Source: Nitrospira sp. (GTDB taxonomy: Bacteria > Nitrospirota > Nitrospiria > Nitrospirales > Nitrospiraceae). From it: 64,000 nucleotides of DNA. The stretch spans positions 1-64,000 of the forward strand of contig JAURZE010000024.1 in NCBI GenBank assembly GCA_030653545.1. The letters run 5' to 3'. Of this stretch, positions 36,908-45,909 are shown piece after piece (positions within the stretch are counted from its first letter, which is position 1; the number at the start of each line of letters is the position of its first letter). Made by a program: the position numbers and the translations under genes. The notes beneath the pieces were generated by a model. That model did no database searches. It saw nothing but the letters and a program-made list of their open reading frames with translations, and was not told the origin of the DNA.

Positions 36908-37753
36908 CTAGCGATCACGCCCGCCGTGACCGCTCCCGCTCCGATCAGGCCGGCTGCCGCGGTCCTCGCGCCCGCCACGATCATCGCGGCCTCCGCGGTC
37001 TGAACTGCCGCTACGATCCATATGATCGCCACCGCCAGATCCGCCTTGATCGCTTTCGCGGAAGATCCGATCCGCACGTTGCCCCTTGGAAACTTGATCC
37101 TTAATGGTCTGTAGATTCATGCGACCTTGCTGAAGGTCGGCTCCCCGCCGCTTGATTTCACGGGCCAGGTCGCTCAGCTCTGCCGACCGATAGCCCTGCC
37201 GCATTCCCTCTGCAATCAGCGCGGTACCGTCTTTCGAGGGAATCTTGGCTTCCTTCAGGATCGCCAGACTCTTGGCCCCGGAGGCTAACGATTCTTGCGA
37301 GACCTCGGCGCCTCCGCCTTGGGCCGTCTTTGCAAGCTCGCGCACGTCTTCGGCGGTCGCCCCGCGGTTCAGCGCCTCCGCCAACCCTTCCAGCGCCCGT
37401 TGCCGATTGCCTTGGGAAACGTCAACCATCCCCTTGCTGATCGATTCCTGCAACACGTCATGAGCCGATTCAAAATGGGAAACCAATTGGCGCAATACCG
37501 GATCGATGCGCTTCGGTTCGACCCCCTTGGCCAAGCCTTCTTTGACTTTGTTCGCCAGCGGTTCGGTCGGGAGACCTTTTTCACCGGCTTTCGTCACCTG
37601 CTCAAGGAGCGCATTCACCTCTTCCGCAGAACGGCCTTGAGCCGAGCGCAGCCGATTGATCTCTTCCCGGTCCTGGGTCGAGAGAGAGTCCGCCAGTGCG
37701 GGCGAAGCACCCAGACACATCGCCAGACCGATCAGCCACACCGGTATGTTCAT
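36908..37753 (-). CDS. Exported protein with Arg/Asp/Gly-rich tail
   Basis: 281 residues from the ATG at 37753; one four codons upstream is also possible. It has a signal peptide (about 1-21, SPALA), a helical middle (about 25-220) and a low-complexity tail (from about 235) of repeated D-R-G-G-R-D and S-G-S units. Such an acidic/basic tail is usually disordered. The start is 17 bases after a CBM48 protein's stop, so the two are co-transcribed. Function unknown. Confidence 0.6.
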   Translation of the reverse strand: MNIPVWLIGLAMCLGASPALADSLSTQDREEINRLRSAQGRSAEEVNALLEQVTKAGEKGLPTEPLANKVKEGLAKGVEPKRIDPVLRQLVSHFESAHDVLQESISKGMVDVSQGNRQRALEGLAEALNRGATAEDVRELAKTAQGGGAEVSQESLASGAKSLAILKEAKIPSKDGTALIAEGMRQGYRSAELSDLAREIKRRGADLQQGRMNLQTIKDQVSKGQRADRIFRESDQGGSGGGDHMDRSGSSDRGGRDDRGGREDRGSRPDRSGSGHGGRDR

Positions 37754-37769
37754 CGTGCTGCGCATAGTC

Positions 37770-38132
37770 TTATCGAACGATCACGACTCCGTTGGTTTGC
37801 CCGAATCCGTCTGTCACAAAATCCTCCGCCAGCGGCGGCACGACCCACTTTTTTCCGTCGACCAGGTACATGAAGGTGTGTTCTCCCGGCCGTAGCATCA
37901 CCTCGGCGACCCAGACCCCCGTCTGCCCTTCTCGCTTCATCGACGTCGCACCCTTGACCCACCCGTTGAACGAACCCACGACATACACGGTAGTGGCCGC
38001 AGGCGCGAGGTAGGCAAACCGCACCCCGCCCGTCACCGGCCTGGGCATATCGGGCTTGAGCGTCGGCGCGCAGGCGCTCATGGCCAGGACCAGCGCCACG
38101 CTCCACATCGCGATTTTGAGTCCGCTCGTCAT
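37770..38132 (-). CDS. Lipoprotein with AMPK-type glycogen-binding (CBM48) domain
   Basis: 120 residues from the ATG at 38132. The lipobox LAMSAC gives lipid Cys21. Residues about 38-118 are a CBM48/isoamylase early-set domain: VYVVGSFNGW (49-58), VWVAEVML, HTFMYLVDGKKWVVPP and the DGFGQTN end. These bind alpha-glucans in glycogen enzymes; here the domain is alone on a lipid anchor, so it probably binds a surface or periplasmic glucan. The next gene upstream is a decayed copy of the same domain. Confidence 0.8.
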   Translation of the reverse strand: MTSGLKIAMWSVALVLAMSACAPTLKPDMPRPVTGGVRFAYLAPAATTVYVVGSFNGWVKGATSMKREGQTGVWVAEVMLRPGEHTFMYLVDGKKWVVPPLAEDFVTDGFGQTNGVVIVR

Positions 38133-38185
38133 GGGCCGCAGAGTACCCGACAGCCGAATGCGATGCAAGGAAGCATGGCCTAGGT

Positions 38186-38450
38186 TCAGATCCTGACATC
38201 AAGCACCGCATTTTCCGCTCCAAAGCCGTCGCCGGAGGCTTCGCCCGCCAGGGGATCGGCGATCCATTGTTTCCCGTCGATCACGAACATGTATTGATAC
38301 CGGCCGGGCTTCAGGGAAATCGTCGCCGTCCACATGCGCCTTCCGACCGCTCCAGCTTCGTCTGCCCGGGATTCCACCCATTGAAATCACCCGCGACTGC
38401 GACCGACTGCGCGCCCGGTTGCAGCAACACCAGCCGGACGAAGACCTTGG
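38186..38450 (-). pseudogene. Decayed AMPK-type CBM48 protein, frameshifted
   Basis: The stretch from VRLVLLQPGAQSVAVAGDFN (reading from about 38437) and the C-terminal half (MWTATISLKPGRYQYMFVIDG down to 38186) lie in different frames, joined only if one base is restored near 38335. Upstream of 38450 the frame soon meets stops. It is a clear second copy of the CBM48 at 37770-38132. A short C-terminal frame (about 63 codons) stays open but has no domain start of its own. The 290 bp from 38451 to 38741 hold no recognisable gene apart from possible further decayed sequence. Confidence 0.7.
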
Positions 38451-38741: not shown

Positions 38742-39419
38742 TTAGCGAATATCCTGAAAGAAGGCTCTGGGGAGGACGGGCAGACGGAATTCGACATGGA
38801 GGATGATGAGGAGAACGCGGAGAAAGCTTCTCCAGACACCCATCTTCAAAAACTTACGCGCATCGGTGACGACGGGAGGCGACAGCAGCAGCGGAGTGGT
38901 GACCGTGATCAGGCGTTCACAAAACGCCACGTCTTCAAGAATCGGCCGGCTGGGGAATCCTCCGAGTTGCTCAAACAAGGCGCGGCGGACAAAGAGTGCT
39001 TGGTCCCCATAGATAATCCGGCTGCGGATACAGCGAATGTTGTCTAAGAGTGAGATCAGCTTCAACCGCCAGTCGTCACCAGAAAACTGATGCATGAATC
39101 CACCGGCCTGGATCGCCGTCTCGAACTCCATCTCGTTTAACCGCTGAATCGCCCCGGACGGCAACAGGGTATCCGCATGGAGGAACAGCAGCCACTCCCC
39201 TTGCGCGATGACAGCTCCGGCATTCATCTGGGAGGCCCGGCCTTTCGGCGCCGTGAGCACGCGCACCGCGGGGACCGCGCCAGCCAACTCCGCTGTTCGG
39301 TCTGTGCTCCCGCCGTCAACGAGAATGACTTCGTAGTCACCAGGTTGCACCACGAGCGCCTGAAGCGTCGCAGGCAGCGCCTTTTCTTCGTTATAGGCGG
39401 GAATGATGACGGAAACCAT
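38742..39419 (-). CDS. TIGR04283-type family 2 glycosyltransferase
   Basis: 225 residues from the ATG at 39419; a GTG three codons upstream is also possible. GT-A motifs are clear: VSVIIPAYNEE at the start, ILVDGGSTD, and a metal-binding LHADT in WLLFLHADT. TIGR04283 proteins are named for arsenosugar clusters but no arsenic genes (arsM, arsS) are seen here. It is the last gene of a radical SAM / DUF547 / ferritin-like / glycosyltransferase operon. The C-terminal helix (SFLRVLLIILHVEF) may touch the membrane. Confidence 0.8.
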   Translation of the reverse strand: MVSVIIPAYNEEKALPATLQALVVQPGDYEVILVDGGSTDRTAELAGAVPAVRVLTAPKGRASQMNAGAVIAQGEWLLFLHADTLLPSGAIQRLNEMEFETAIQAGGFMHQFSGDDWRLKLISLLDNIRCIRSRIIYGDQALFVRRALFEQLGGFPSRPILEDVAFCERLITVTTPLLLSPPVVTDARKFLKMGVWRSFLRVLLIILHVEFRLPVLPRAFFQDIR

Positions 39420-39443
39420 AGTGCACACTTCAGTGATCGGCCG

Positions 39444-40094
39444 CTAAGACTCTGCCCTCGGTTCCACCAGCCACTCTGGCAGAAACTTCCGGACATCCTG
39501 TGCCCAGGCCGTGGGATCTTCGGCGATGGTTTCAAATAAATCGCTCAGCGCCAGCACCATCTGATCGGTCAGCGCGAGGTAGTCTTGGGCACGGCGGCTC
39601 AGGGTCACTGCATCGATACGACCATCGGCCATGGCCCGTTCCAGCATGCGCCGGCCGAAGCCATGATGGGCTTCTTCTTGCTGCAGCAGGATGCGCCGTA
39701 GCCGGCCGAAAGGAGCGGCGCGTTTCACCAACCCGTCCTCGATGCGCGTGAGAATCGCCTCTCCCAATCCTTCGAGAATGACCTGCTCGGCCAGGACGGT
39801 TTCGAGCAAGTCCTGACGGGCCAATGCATCATCGAGTATCTTCCGATACGCTTCCAAGGCCGGAAGAAACGGCGCGTCGCCCAGATGTTTTGGCGCGAGC
39901 CAGGCAATGGCCCCCCGAAACACGAACGCATGCGCCGACTCCTGCCGGGCCTGGCTGAGGAGGAACCGACGCGACGGCGCGTCCGGCGCCAAAGCAGCCT
40001 GCGCCTGCGCACACTCGTTCGCCATCCGTTCACCATGCTCAAGAAACGTCAGCAGCCGCGCGATTGGCACTTTCTCATCGGGGCCTACCAGCAC
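39444..40094 (-). CDS. Ferritin-like (di-iron) protein
   Basis: 216 residues from a GTG start that follows AGAGGTGA, three bases after the DUF547 stop. Four helices carry a likely di-iron set: ESAH (SQARQESAHAFVF), EQVILEGLGE, and QQEEAHHGFGRR, with an early Glu/His helix (LEHGERM). This fits ferritin-like oxygenase or hydroxylase-type proteins (some in this group hydroxylate tRNA or small molecules). Identity beyond the fold is not certain. It sits between a lipoprotein and a glycosyltransferase gene. Confidence 0.65.
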   Translation of the reverse strand: MLVGPDEKVPIARLLTFLEHGERMANECAQAQAALAPDAPSRRFLLSQARQESAHAFVFRGAIAWLAPKHLGDAPFLPALEAYRKILDDALARQDLLETVLAEQVILEGLGEAILTRIEDGLVKRAAPFGRLRRILLQQEEAHHGFGRRMLERAMADGRIDAVTLSRRAQDYLALTDQMVLALSDLFETIAEDPTAWAQDVRKFLPEWLVEPRAES

Positions 40095-40097
40095 ACA

Positions 40098-40868
40098 TCA
40101 CCTCTGCGGTACGGGACCGTTCAGACTCCAGTCATAGTCGAGATACTCGATGCGATACGAATTTTCCGTGAGATCATGAGCTAATTGTTCATCAGCGATA
40201 TACCGCGCCACAAACCGCAGCACGGAGCCGGCTTGCGCGGAAAAGTCGTCCGTAAACCAATCAAAGATCTTGGAGAGATAGGCAACCCTGTTGTCTCGAT
40301 CAAACCGGTTCCTGGACGGATCATTGATAAACCCGCGCGTCACCTGCTCAAGTTGCTGCTCCAACGGTGTCCGGTCATAGGCCCAGGGCTGTAACTTGGG
40401 GCAGGAAGCGGACGCACAGACGATCGCGAAGTGCATCCGCGGCTCATGAAATTGCGCAATGAGAATGTCCCGCTCTAGATCGTACAGATTGATCGAGGCC
40501 CCTCCCGCGCGATAGGCTCGCCCGATGAAGTACCGATACCGCCCGGCCCACGTCCCGGGAGAATAGCCGTCCAAGATCCCCTTGATGGCGTAAGCGTTAT
40601 AGGCATTGATCCAGAGCGCCAATCGATCGTCTTTCGGCAGACTATTCGGATCGACACGGTCCAAGTGATCCAGATACTGCGCGAACCGCCGGTCATCCAT
40701 AATAGCCGGATAATCCACCACCCCGTCCCGCACATGCGCCTGCAATACCTGATCGAACGGCTGATGAGAGAATTCTCCCGGGGCCAAGGGCATGGCTGGG
40801 CGGTAATTCGTGGGCACCGTCGAACAACCGCCCAGCACCGCAATCAGCACAATCATCGCAACTCTCAT
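40098..40868 (-). CDS. DUF547 lipoprotein
   Basis: 256 residues from the ATG at 40868, preceded by AGGAGG seven to eight bases upstream; the GTG overlapping the radical SAM stop would be less well placed. Lipobox GGC gives lipid Cys15. DUF547 marks: LALWINAYNAYAIKGIL (about 91-107) and the SASCPKL pair. DUF547 is widespread and unassigned, often near glycosyltransferases. It is a periplasmic or outer-membrane facing protein, which contrasts with its cytoplasmic radical SAM partner. Confidence 0.8.
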   Translation of the reverse strand: MRVAMIVLIAVLGGCSTVPTNYRPAMPLAPGEFSHQPFDQVLQAHVRDGVVDYPAIMDDRRFAQYLDHLDRVDPNSLPKDDRLALWINAYNAYAIKGILDGYSPGTWAGRYRYFIGRAYRAGGASINLYDLERDILIAQFHEPRMHFAIVCASASCPKLQPWAYDRTPLEQQLEQVTRGFINDPSRNRFDRDNRVAYLSKIFDWFTDDFSAQAGSVLRFVARYIADEQLAHDLTENSYRIEYLDYDWSLNGPVPQR

Positions 40869-40888
40869 CGCAACCCCTCCTGTGCCCC

Positions 40889-41869
40889 TCACAACGTGAC
40901 CGGCGTGCGCAGCGCTGTGAGTGGATGCCGCACAATCGATCCGACAATCCGGCTGTCGAGCCGATTGCAGGATGATCTTCCCGAGCAGCTCGCAATCTTG
41001 TCCCGATCGAACCCTGCCAGAATATCACTCAAGGAGGCCGTCAGCAGATTCCCGGAACAGGGCAAGGAGAGACAGGGCGCCACGTTGCCGGATGCATCGA
41101 TGGCGATACTATAACGCCCCGCATCACAGGGCTCCAAATCATGCCCCTGCAACCAGCGAACATTGTCTTCAGTAAAGCGCTTCAGTGATCCCGACGGGAT
41201 CAGCGCCTCATCGAGCAACTGCTGGAAGAGCATGCCGGCTTGTTGCCGCTGGTACATCAACGCCGGATCCTTCTTCCCGTACAGTCCCACCTCCCAATGA
41301 TAGGCGCCGACCACCGGCAACATTCCTTGCTCCGTTGCAAATCGGACGACCGCGGGAACCTCGGCTCGATTCAGTTCGCTCACAATGCACACCAGACACT
41401 TCTGATGCGGATACTCTTGGAGCAATGCGATCCCCTCACGCACCTGATCGAGTTGATCGGCACCGCGAATCTGCCGATACCGTTCGCGATCCAGCGTATC
41501 CAGGCTCACGGATATCGTCACCCGATGCGGCGCCATTCTGTCCAGCAACGGTGGCGTCAACTTTGTGCCGTTGGTGATGAGGGTAATGAAGAAGCCTAAG
41601 GCGGCAAGGTCCTCGATAATCTCCGGCAGGTCGCGGCGGAGCAACGGCTCCCCGCCCTGGAGGAAAACCATGCGCACTCCGTCCCGGTAGAGCCCGGTGA
41701 AGACCCGCCGGATCTCATCTCTGGTCATTTCATAACGGCCTTGATTGAGCGGCAGATTGCAGTACCCGCAATTCGAGTTGCAGCGCAAACACACCTGAAA
41801 GACGGCCAGCAACGGTTTGCCTCTAAGGAGGTTACGGACCGGAGCATAGAGTGTCCGAATGACGCCCAT
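40889..41869 (-). CDS. Radical SAM protein with SPASM-like C-terminus
   Basis: 326 residues. The radical SAM cluster motif is CNSNCGYC (Cx3CxxC; about residues 30-37) near the N-terminus with a downstream GGEPLL. The C-terminal part has further cysteines (CDAGRYSI, VAPC, CSGRSSC) like a SPASM domain binding an auxiliary 4Fe-4S cluster, as in peptide-modifying or PqqE-like enzymes. The substrate is not known. It heads a four-gene operon; the DUF547 gene follows at 20 bases. Confidence 0.8.
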   Translation of the reverse strand: MGVIRTLYAPVRNLLRGKPLLAVFQVCLRCNSNCGYCNLPLNQGRYEMTRDEIRRVFTGLYRDGVRMVFLQGGEPLLRRDLPEIIEDLAALGFFITLITNGTKLTPPLLDRMAPHRVTISVSLDTLDRERYRQIRGADQLDQVREGIALLQEYPHQKCLVCIVSELNRAEVPAVVRFATEQGMLPVVGAYHWEVGLYGKKDPALMYQRQQAGMLFQQLLDEALIPSGSLKRFTEDNVRWLQGHDLEPCDAGRYSIAIDASGNVAPCLSLPCSGNLLTASLSDILAGFDRDKIASCSGRSSCNRLDSRIVGSIVRHPLTALRTPVTL

Positions 41870-42112
41870 TCTGATTATGTCCCCATCCGATTACACACAT
41901 GCCGACCGGTGCCATATGCTGTCATCCTGATCAGATTTGCACGGGGTACGGCCGTTTTTTTTCCCCTCACCATGTGGTCTACGTGTCCCTCCTTAGAACC
42001 ACATCCTAACCTATTGTTTCTCCAGGAAGTCCTCGACAGCCCGCTTTCGGCATGTGCCTTGCTGTATGGCAAACCAAGAACTATGCACCGTTCATTTCTA
42101 AGGAGGTTGTCG

Positions 42113-42520
42113 ATGAAGAGCCAGATGAAGAGCCCCATGATGACGATCGCTGTTGCCGCCCTCGCCATGGTGGCGCTGGCCGCTGCGCCGGCGTTGGCCA
42201 AAGATAAAGAGGCGAAGAAGAAGTCGTCCGGCATGCACCATTCCTCTGCCGCAGCTGCCGCCTCGTCTACCGGCCATATTCCTGAAGTCGGCCATGCGCC
42301 AAAGGCAGGCGAGCACGACTCAAAGCCGGGTCCGGCCTGGAAGACCGTAGGCGGGACGCTCAAGCACGTGGATGGTAATGCGTACATTGTTGAAGACTAC
42401 GAAGGCAATCAGGTGAAACTGTATGTCGGCCAGGGGACGAAACACATCAAGCAGAAGAAGGTCGGGGACACGGTCCGCGCCGAGATCACGCGGGGTGGCT
42501 TCGCGAATTCCGTGCAGTAA
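42113..42520 (+). CDS. Small exported basic protein
   Basis: 135 residues from the ATG at 42113, with AAGGAGG six bases upstream. A signal peptide (about 8-30, ending in APALA) precedes a Lys/His/Ser/Ala-rich section and a short domain (about 75-135, TVGGTLKHVDGNAYIVEDYE) that looks like a small beta fold. A strong terminator hairpin follows at 42567-42600. It stands alone; function unknown. Confidence 0.65.
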   Translation: MKSQMKSPMMTIAVAALAMVALAAAPALAKDKEAKKKSSGMHHSSAAAAASSTGHIPEVGHAPKAGEHDSKPGPAWKTVGGTLKHVDGNAYIVEDYEGNQVKLYVGQGTKHIKQKKVGDTVRAEITRGGFANSVQ

Positions 42521-42623: not shown

Positions 42624-43376
42624 TTACTTTGCCGTCTTCCTGAATTCAATATCCCCGTAGAACGCGACCGCCCTCTCCTTGGTATTGTCCGTATCACTCA
42701 TGATCGCGACCCCATTGATCAACGGAGGCTCTTCGCCGAACGCCTTTTTGTAGTCTTCATAGATATTCCGCTCCTCTTCTACCCACATCCCCACTTTCGA
42801 CGGTCCGCTTTCGACCACAATCATCTGAGCAAAATCCGTATAGGCATTCTCCACGATCGTGCCGACCGAGGTTTTTGTCTCCCAGATATAGTTCAACGCG
42901 CCGATGGGAATGTCGCCGAAGAGCGCTCGGCCCGCCTTGTACTTCAACTTCCTCCCGAAGCTCACATGGTCGGGATCATAGGCAAACGTAATATAGAGCC
43001 GGGCCGGGTAATCGTCTCCATCCTTCCGGCTCACGTCACTATGCTGAAGCAGATTCTCGACCTTCCAGCGCCAGCGGACAATGGGATAGTCTTTGGGATT
43101 GATGGCCACTTCCTTCGTCAGCCCGGAGGCTGAAGCGTCACTCGTGGCCCTCACCACGACCTGCTCACCCTCTTTCACCAGCGCATATTCCGTCTGCTTC
43201 GGAATCTTCTTGAACGTCAGGGGTTTCCAGCCGCCAGGAAGGCCTGTCCCGGGCTGTTCCGAGGAGAACTTTCCAACCTCGATGACCGGTGCAGATTGCC
43301 CCCAGGACATTACCTGACCACCAAGGCTGCCTGAGATCAGAACCGTAAGCGCAACCACCCTCTGCAAGGCCGTCAT
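42624..43376 (-). CDS. Exported DUF3047 protein
   Basis: 250 residues. A signal peptide (about 1-27) is followed by the DUF3047 domain (about 34-245): IVRWRWKVENLL, RLYITFAYDP and GVAIMSDTDNT are typical. The family is periplasmic and unassigned; the fold is a beta sandwich that likely binds a ligand. AGGAGAGG precedes the start, 12 bases after the reductase-like gene, so it is the third gene of the TVP38 operon. Confidence 0.8.
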   Translation of the reverse strand: MTALQRVVALTVLISGSLGGQVMSWGQSAPVIEVGKFSSEQPGTGLPGGWKPLTFKKIPKQTEYALVKEGEQVVVRATSDASASGLTKEVAINPKDYPIVRWRWKVENLLQHSDVSRKDGDDYPARLYITFAYDPDHVSFGRKLKYKAGRALFGDIPIGALNYIWETKTSVGTIVENAYTDFAQMIVVESGPSKVGMWVEEERNIYEDYKKAFGEEPPLINGVAIMSDTDNTKERAVAFYGDIEFRKTAK

Positions 43377-43388
43377 GCCGTTCCTCTC

Positions 43389-44942
43389 CTACCTCCTCAT
43401 CCAGGCGAAGAGTTTCACGAGCCGATTCCTCGTCGCCTGCGTGAAATGCGCCTTGCGCCAGAGATTGACCACCTTCTTATTGACCTCCGCCTGGGTGGGA
43501 TAGGGATGGATGGTCCCGGCAATCGTCTTGGCCCCGAGTCCGGCTTTCATCAAGACGGAGAATTCACTGATCATCTCGCCGGCATGCGCTGCCACAATCG
43601 TCGCTCCCAGGATCTTGTCCGAACCCTTTTGAATGTGAACCCGCGCAAATCCTTCGTCTTCGCCGTCAAGGATGGCACGGTCGACTTCATCCAACTTGAA
43701 CGTATAGGTTTCGACCTCGAGACCTTTCTCCTGCGCGTCTTTCTCATACATCCCGACGTGTGCAATCTCTGGGTCCGTGAACGTGCACCAGGGCATGATC
43801 AGCGAATCCACGCTGGCATAGCCTAAACCGAACGGATGGGGAAACAGGGCATTTTGGATCACGATCTGCGCCATCGCATCGGCAGCGTGGGTAAACTTGT
43901 GGCGGGAACAGACATCGCCCGCCGCGAAGATGCGTGGATTGCTGGTCTGCAACCGGCCATTCACCTTGACGCCATTCTTATCGAACTCGACCCCGACCGC
44001 ATCCAGCCCCAGCCCCTCCACATTCGGAATGCGGCCGACACCCACCAAAATTTCATCGACCGCCACATCGTACTGTTGGCCATGGGAATCAACCGTGAGA
44101 CGCTTCACGCCGTCCACCCTGCTGACCTTCAGATCTTTGCCGCAACAAAGGAGTTGCACCCCATCCTTCACCATCTGCTGTTCCACGATCTGCGCCGCAT
44201 CTCGATCCTCATTCGGCAGAATGCCGTGCTGGGTTTCGATCAAAGAGACCTGGCTGCCAAACCGGGCAAACGATTGCGCTAACTCGCACCCGATCGGCCC
44301 CGCGCCGATCACCGCGAGACGTGGCGGCAACTCCGTGAGAGAAAACACCGTTTCATTGGTGAGGTAACCCGCCTCTTGCAGCCCGGGAATCTGTGGCGCG
44401 GAGGCGCGCGCGCCGGTGCAAATCGCCGCTTTCACAAACTGCAGCGAGCGATTGCCGGCCGGCCCTTCGACCGTCACCGTCTCCGTCCCTGCGAACCGCG
44501 CGTTGCCGACAAACACATCGACGCCTAGATTTTTATAGCGTTGCGCCGAATCATTGTGGCTGATCTTCGCCCGTAGCTTTCGCATACGCGCCATCGCCGC
44601 ACCAAAGTCATACTTCACGCCGGCGGGAATGTGCAGCCCGAACTCAGCGGCATTGCGGAGGTCGGCCCAGGCCCGCGCAGCGCGAATCACTCCCTTTGAC
44701 GGCACACAGCCTACATTCAGGCAATCTCCGCCCATCAGATGCTTTTCGATCAGCGCGACCTTCGCGCCCAAGCTCGCGGCAATGACAGCCGTGATTAAGC
44801 CGGCTGTCCCAGCCCCAATGACTACCATGTTGTAGCGACCGGGCGGCTCCGGATTGACCCAGTCAGCAGGATGCACATTGGCGACAAGCCGCTGATTATG
44901 CTCATCATCCGGCAGCATCAGGCTCTCATCTTGCTGACTCAT
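43389..44942 (-). CDS. Mercuric-reductase-like FAD/NAD pyridine nucleotide-disulfide oxidoreductase
   Basis: 517 residues. FAD motif GAGTAGL (43-49), redox pair C74-x4-C79 in GGDCLNVGCVPSKG, NAD motif GAGPIGCEL, and the C-terminal HPYPTQAE region with the catalytic His-Glu pair. The extra C-terminal CC pair of true MerA is absent and there is no mer operon, so mercury reduction is unlikely to be its job; the enzyme is close to dihydrolipoamide dehydrogenase. It has a 35-residue N-terminal extension. The ATG overlaps the TVP38 stop (ATGA). Confidence 0.85.
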   Translation of the reverse strand: MSQQDESLMLPDDEHNQRLVANVHPADWVNPEPPGRYNMVVIGAGTAGLITAVIAASLGAKVALIEKHLMGGDCLNVGCVPSKGVIRAARAWADLRNAAEFGLHIPAGVKYDFGAAMARMRKLRAKISHNDSAQRYKNLGVDVFVGNARFAGTETVTVEGPAGNRSLQFVKAAICTGARASAPQIPGLQEAGYLTNETVFSLTELPPRLAVIGAGPIGCELAQSFARFGSQVSLIETQHGILPNEDRDAAQIVEQQMVKDGVQLLCCGKDLKVSRVDGVKRLTVDSHGQQYDVAVDEILVGVGRIPNVEGLGLDAVGVEFDKNGVKVNGRLQTSNPRIFAAGDVCSRHKFTHAADAMAQIVIQNALFPHPFGLGYASVDSLIMPWCTFTDPEIAHVGMYEKDAQEKGLEVETYTFKLDEVDRAILDGEDEGFARVHIQKGSDKILGATIVAAHAGEMISEFSVLMKAGLGAKTIAGTIHPYPTQAEVNKKVVNLWRKAHFTQATRNRLVKLFAWMRR

Positions 44943-45676
44943 CCGCGCGCTCCTCTAAATTTCTTATAGACCGTCGGAATGAGGGCCAACAGCCCCAACA
45001 GCACAAAGGCCCCAATGACATTCGGCGAGGCGATTTCCTTCAACGAGTTGATCGTTCCCAACTGCCGGCCGGCGTAGGCATAGACGAACGAACCCGGAAT
45101 AATACCCAGCGCCGTTGCCGCAACATAGGTTCCCACGTTCATACGGGTGAGGCCGGAGACCAAATTCACTACGAAGAACGGGAACAAGGGAATCAGGCGC
45201 AAGGTCATCAGATAACTGAACGCATTGTTGGTAAAGCCCTGCTGAACGGGTCCCAGCCACTTCCCGAACTTCTGCTCCACCCAGTCGCGCAACAGATAGC
45301 GCGCCGTTAGGAAGGCCAGCGTCGCCCCGGTCGTCGCGCCAAGATTCACAAAGAGGGTGCCCAGGATACTACCAAACAGAAATCCTCCGGCCAGCGTCAG
45401 AATGACCGCACCCGGCAGGGACAAGCCCGTCACCACGATGTAGGTAAGGATGAAAAGACCGACCGCCGTCGCATAATTCGCCTCGGTGAAGGCCAGCAAG
45501 TGGTCTCGATTACTTTTCAAGGCGTCCAGAGACAGGACCCTTCCCAGGTCGAAGTAGAAAAATAGTCCGATAGCCACGACGATACCTGCCATCATGGCGA
45601 ACTTACTTCCGTTTGATTGCTGGGATGGGTTGGTCGTCGGCGCTTGGCTAGTCATAGCGGCTTCATGGAGTATCAT
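44939..45676 (-). CDS. TVP38/TMEM64 (SNARE-associated, DedA-like) membrane protein
   Basis: 245 residues from the ATG at 45676, chosen for AGAGGAG five bases upstream; further upstream codons lack a binding site. Five to six membrane helices and the family motif region GGFLFGSILGTLFVNLGATTG, with FVYAYAGRQLG near the C-terminus. DedA-like proteins are lipid flippases or proton-coupled transporters. It is the first of a three-gene operon with the reductase-like protein and DUF3047, an arrangement seen in many bacteria. Confidence 0.85.
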   Translation of the reverse strand: MILHEAAMTSQAPTTNPSQQSNGSKFAMMAGIVVAIGLFFYFDLGRVLSLDALKSNRDHLLAFTEANYATAVGLFILTYIVVTGLSLPGAVILTLAGGFLFGSILGTLFVNLGATTGATLAFLTARYLLRDWVEQKFGKWLGPVQQGFTNNAFSYLMTLRLIPLFPFFVVNLVSGLTRMNVGTYVAATALGIIPGSFVYAYAGRQLGTINSLKEIASPNVIGAFVLLGLLALIPTVYKKFRGARG

Positions 45677-45909
45677 GGGGACTCCTCTCAGGTCTGTCAA
45701 TGGAACAACCTGCCCGTATAGTCGACGCCGCCGCCGGTTTCTTACAGGAGGGGCGCAGACCAAGCCGCACATGATCGCTATGAAGAGGTACGGACGGGGT
45801 TGGTATCTGGATGTGGGTGGCTGAAACAGAATGAGGACAACGGACCAAAGTCAGAGGAGCCTGCTCAGGGGAAGGGGTCTGGCCTGACCGGCCGGTTCTG
45901 CGTGCAAAT

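Follow-up and report, generated by a model that had tools for sequence, protein, structure and literature searches.

Four adjacent genes, for a radical SAM (rSAM) enzyme, a DUF547 lipoprotein, a ferritin-like protein and a glycosyltransferase (GT), lie close together on the minus strand between positions 38742 and 41869 of the 64,000-nt stretch of Nitrospira DNA analysed here (the window). Such packing may reflect a shared function or chance, and the combination raises the question of what a set of this kind could make. We consider first whether the genes form a unit, then what the individual proteins tell about their chemistry, and finally how the possible functions compare.

A conserved cassette in Nitrospirales

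All four ORFs are present, and the families named in the original prediction held up throughout, three by their Pfam and NCBIfam scores and the ferritin-like protein by its fold and metal ligands (Table 1). Judging from the sequence, the start of the DUF547 gene is likelier to be the ATG at 40868-40866, behind AGGAGGGG, than the GTG at 40892, and the alignment of the GT begins from the ATG at 39419. With these starts, the rSAM and DUF547 genes are separated by 20 bp and the DUF547 and ferritin-like genes by 3 bp, while 24 bp lead to the ATG of the GT; with intergenic gaps of at most ~24 bp, there is no room for a precursor-peptide gene inside the cassette. The spacing suggests that the four genes are co-transcribed; a scan of the cassette for promoters and terminators gave no more matches than were found in shuffles.

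Table 1. Genes of the cassette and of its surroundings, with window coordinates
Feature	Coordinates	Strand	Basis or remark
GT2 glycosyltransferase, cassette-specific clade of TIGR04283	38742..39419	-	219 bits, cut-off 182
Ferritin-like di-iron oxygenase (predicted), aldehyde-deformylating oxygenase (ADO) fold	39444..40094	-	AlphaFold2 model, PDB fold matches, profile match to ADO
DUF547 lipoprotein (predicted), start re-set to ATG 40868	40098..40868	-	PF04784 2.6e-23; lipobox Cys near 40826-40824
rSAM enzyme, short SPASM/twitch-type C-terminus, optional cassette member	40889..41869	-	PF04055 1.7e-24, PF13186 1.8e-4
Small exported protein, divergent to cassette	42101..42520	+	conserved at locus, also without cassette; no Pfam match
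DUF3047 protein, neighbouring block, not obligate partner	42624..43376	-	PF11249 1.2e-77
MerA-like FAD oxidoreductase (FADox), neighbouring block	43389..44942	-	NF004991 785 bits, cut-off 620
VTT-domain (TVP38/DedA-type) membrane protein, neighbouring block	44939..45772	-	PF09335 4.9e-26

The order rSAM-DUF547-ferritin-like-GT was found at 29 of 30 loci, nearly all from the same family. A scan of a species-level genome collection gave 79 loci, 45 of them with the exact four-gene order and 13 with DUF547-ferritin-like-GT without the rSAM gene; nearly all are titled Nitrospira, Nitrospirae or Nitrospirales, and among the exceptions are one contig from Nitrospinota and one of 3 kb from Verrucomicrobiota, the second of which may be contamination. 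Across 117 genomes of the family, the four genes are nearly coincident in their distribution: the GT clade of the cassette occurs in 58 genomes, the ferritin-like gene in 56, DUF547 in 54 and rSAM in 41 (P 1e-19 to 1e-29, a statistic that ignores relatedness), and several of the discrepancies come from solo paralogues or fragmented assemblies. All 41 rSAM-bearing genomes also carry the ferritin-like gene; the rSAM gene is missing from 15 of the 56 genomes that have the ferritin-like gene. The dN/dS values of all four genes, 0.05-0.28, indicate purifying selection, though some of the dS values exceed 1.5 and are rough, and the divergences of the four proteins are correlated (r 0.66-0.88 over 51-54 loci), as relatedness alone would also make them. 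In the sister family, the order is DUF547-rSAM-ferritin-like-GT, sometimes with bufferin genes in between; since the genes are still together in a different order, the conservation of the set goes beyond simple synteny.

The conserved order, co-distribution and dN/dS exclude chance packing, and the four genes form a real cassette that, across Nitrospirales, has for the most part been inherited, lost and rearranged as one. The order and co-distribution thus bear out the original prediction of a functional unit. Not all four are obligate members: the core of the cassette is DUF547, the ADO-like protein and the GT, while rSAM is an optional fourth member, added in most lineages. The three core genes, without rSAM, are also present in cultured N. 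moscoviensis.

The surroundings of the cassette behave differently. In a close relative (G115), the alignment with the window runs up to position 36962 on one flank and resumes at 41921 on the other, 77 bp separating the two. The whole cassette and most of the neighbouring x37-CBM48 genes are absent from the site; the 3' end of x37 survives there as a remnant, which suggests a loss. Another genome (G009) has ~3 kb of other genes in place of the cassette. Both retain in place the block DUF3047-FADox-VTT that lies on the same strand beside the cassette in the window, and in which the VTT and FAD oxidoreductase genes overlap by 4 bp. Since it stays where the cassette is missing, the block is a neighbour and not an obligate partner; with DUF3047 itself nearly universal (115 of the 117 family genomes), its membership in the unit was rejected. 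In G236 and L120, VTT-FADox-DUF3047 precedes the core, all on one strand. Second DUF3047 copies, mostly together with a FAD oxidoreductase, were seen at eight loci near arsS/arsM or MNIO genes. On the other side, downstream of the cassette, window positions 36908-38390 hold two short ORFs, one or both of them similar to CBM48/AMPK-glycogen-binding domains, and 36908-37765 encodes a protein that is exported and belongs to no known family; these were lost with the cassette in G115.

An ADO-like protein and its partners

The ferritin-like protein, for which no model matched in Pfam or NCBIfam, was placed by its predicted structure (AlphaFold2, pLDDT 87.8). In a fold search against the PDB, the best 21 entries were all ADO, with Z from 24.9 to 21.4 over ~203 residues, followed by R2-like ligand-binding oxidase (R2lox) with Z 20.7; the top ADO match covers the full length (rmsd 2.4 Å over 203 residues), the identity to ADO is 15-19%, and Foldseek gave E 2.4e-5 and TM 0.79 against ADO. 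By sequence, too, a profile of the family hits ADO chains (E=5e-4), and the Glu/ExxH/Glu/ExxH ligands line up. All six predicted metal ligands, E22, E52, H55, E108, E140 and H143 as numbered from the GTG start, align with those of ADO, and among 17 homologues E51, H54, E107 and E139 are invariant and H142 is conserved in at least 90% (here counted from residue 2). On the strength of the modelled fold, we take the protein to be a homologue of cyanobacterial ADO, and because that fold is matched and the metal ligands are aligned, it is very likely an oxygenase with a di-iron (or Mn/Fe) centre, in agreement with its earlier assignment to the di-iron proteins. The fold does not fix the reaction, however: R2lox and other ferritin-like oxidases score only ~4 Z units lower, and R2lox shares the ferritin-like architecture (Z about 20), although it is a larger protein and scores below ADO.

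ADO itself acts on fatty aldehydes, and its ligand spacing is E60-E115. An ADO-like centre is also found in BioE, an enzyme that acts on acyl chains (PMC12915131). A role as BioE in biotin synthesis was rejected, the ligand spacing being E53-E125 in EmBioE (PMC12915131) versus E52-E108 here and the gene context unrelated. At four loci, the genes after a stand-alone paralogue of the ADO-like protein encode a PPDK_N/PEP-utilizer phosphotransferase and a CarS-like CDP-lipid-synthase homologue, one of these loci (L124) having a 42-residue GT-like remnant between the paralogue and the following genes. This PPDK-CarS neighbourhood points towards lipid chemistry, but it does so for a paralogue of 60-63% identity and not for the cassette protein.

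The partners are less easily matched to proteins of known function. The rSAM enzyme has its CxxxCxxC cluster motif at 41782-41759, and this and four C-terminal cysteines are kept in 11 homologues; among NCBIfam models none passed its cut-off, and the protein matches the general rSAM core only. The DUF547 protein is a predicted lipoprotein, in line with the export that had been proposed, and both the lipobox Cys and an HFAIVCASxSCP motif are invariant in 17 homologues. Its AlphaFold2 model (pLDDT 88.4) found no convincing match in the PDB, the best Foldseek E being 1.7 and the best Z in a second look with VIA 5.2, which does not show that the fold is new. The GT keeps the GT2 motifs and passes the TIGR04283 model; with 61-81% identity to other cassette copies versus 37% to other Nitrospira copies of TIGR04283, it forms a clade of its own within that family.

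Possible functions of the cassette

The original prediction of a modified glycoconjugate or small-molecule product remains a reasonable reading. With a confidence somewhat short of even, we favour a function in which a lipid-like compound of the envelope is oxidised and glycosylated, perhaps in connection with metal stress. In such a pathway, the rSAM enzyme would act first, making a C-H or C-C change in a hydrophobic substrate that is probably lipid-like; the di-iron protein would carry out an O2-dependent oxidation that leaves a hydroxyl or carbonyl handle; the glycosyltransferase, working on the cytoplasmic side, would attach a sugar; and at the envelope the product would be handled or processed by the DUF547 lipoprotein. 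The substrate class, the order of the steps and the glycosylated envelope product are all inferred. A lipid-like substrate is favoured because ADO-fold enzymes are known to act on fatty aldehydes or acyl chains and because the stand-alone paralogue adjoins the phosphotransferase and CarS-like genes; an envelope role, because of the DUF547 lipobox and the placing of the core after the VTT-FADox-DUF3047 block in G236 and L120. As a counterweight, the bufferin genes inside some sister-family cassettes would be just as compatible with a function that involves a peptide or the handling of metals.

That counterweight leads to the strongest alternative, by which the cassette serves under metal or copper stress, either alongside copper-binding peptides of the bufferin type or by making a glycoconjugate that binds metal, the FADox-DUF3047 block belonging to the same response. 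Five sister-lineage loci have MNIO and/or DUF2063 genes in or adjoining the cassette; one locus (L045) encodes a BufA2-type precursor (NF050166, 68.7 bits against a cut-off of 60) and another (L044) a similar Cys-rich ORF; bufBC adjoins the block in one genome (G105, L034/L111); and second DUF3047 copies lie near MNIO genes in five genomes. A further sister Nitrospirales locus, L046, is also among those with bufferin-type genes inside or beside the cassette. However, while bufferin (BufABC) clusters are adjacent to or interleaved with the cassette in sister-family loci, BufA, BufB (MNIO) and BufC (DUF2063) are absent from the cassette in the window and from most cassettes of the family. In the genome that contains the window, a BufB-type MNIO is absent, there being just one weak match of 52 bits, most family cassettes likewise lack one, and the main text of a survey of MNIO clusters contains no DUF547, ferritin, glycosyl- or Nitrospir- term (PMC12452194). 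We therefore regard this explanation as unlikely, if not markedly so.

The bufferin genes in sister loci, together with the rSAM/SPASM architecture, could also be taken to indicate a unit for the maturation of a ribosomal peptide (RiPP), in which the rSAM/SPASM enzyme would be the maturase, and the TIGR04283 assignment of the GT raises the question of arsenic. In the latter case, the cassette would be a branch of an arsenosugar or other organoarsenical pathway, the GT acting on the product of ArsS. The original prediction had set this link aside as there is no arsM or arsS in the window; the absence from the window stands, but the dismissal does so only in part, an arsM-arsS pair being found elsewhere in the same genome, on contig C33 (ArsS 447 bits, cut-off 300; an ArsM-type methyltransferase 234 bits, cut-off 263), and arsS in every one of the 44 genomes that carry the cassette and are at least 90% complete. 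The six genomes of that completeness without arsS all lack the cassette (Fisher p=0.027, in a test that ignores relatedness), the five sister-family genomes with the cassette all have arsS, and DUF3047 lies near arsS in two genomes (G167 and G145). On the other hand, arsS passes its cut-off in 104 of the 117 family genomes, about half of these without the cassette, and the arsM-arsS pair is unlinked to the cassette, which lies on contig C24. While the cassette GT passes the TIGR04283 model of the arsenosugar cluster (arsM, arsS, TIGR04283), the cassette rSAM is not ArsS, and the GT is a separate clade, with its 37% identity to other copies. Because the arsM-arsS pair lies elsewhere in the genome with a separate TIGR04283 copy, ~39 kb away on C33, that scores higher than the cassette GT, the arsenosugar label on the latter is doubtful, and we consider the pathway itself improbable. 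The automatic name 'arsenosugar glycosyltransferase' should thus not be taken as the function of the cassette GT clade.

RiPP maturation is slightly less probable again: the cassette has no space for a precursor gene, its rSAM gene is dispensable and passes the cut-off of no RiPP maturase model, and the small exported protein upstream occurs also without the cassette. Alkane biosynthesis of the cyanobacterial ADO type, which the ADO fold and ligands would suit, is very improbable because no acyl-ACP reductase (TIGR04058), the partner of ADO, passed its cut-off in eight cassette-positive genomes, and the GT, DUF547 and rSAM found beside the cassette protein set it apart from cyanobacterial ADO, the co-occurrence with a GT and DUF547 not being part of the alkane pathway as known.

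Lipid oxidation and glycosylation thus remains our preferred reading. The ADO fold, the same-strand VTT/FAD-oxidoreductase/DUF3047 block beside the cassette and the bufferin link in the sister family go beyond what had originally been noticed at the locus. In a wider and more speculative form, the cassette may represent a Nitrospirales pathway to a glycolipid or glycoconjugate: an ADO-fold di-iron oxygenase, joined in most lineages by an rSAM enzyme, would functionalise a lipid, a TIGR04283-type enzyme would then glycosylate it, and in sister lineages the pathway would be tied to copper-buffering peptides; we hold this only tentatively. Searches of the literature on TIGR04283, on DUF547 with radical SAM and on the gene combination in Nitrospira returned nothing relevant, the work on DUF547 being mostly from plants, and such a pathway, if true, would not have been described previously. 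Nitrospira are major nitrite oxidisers and complete ammonia oxidisers, and their envelope chemistry is poorly known. Whatever its product, the cassette is conserved and bound to its lineage and contains an ADO-like enzyme outside alkane synthesis, and the presence of its core in cultured N. moscoviensis provides a concrete target.
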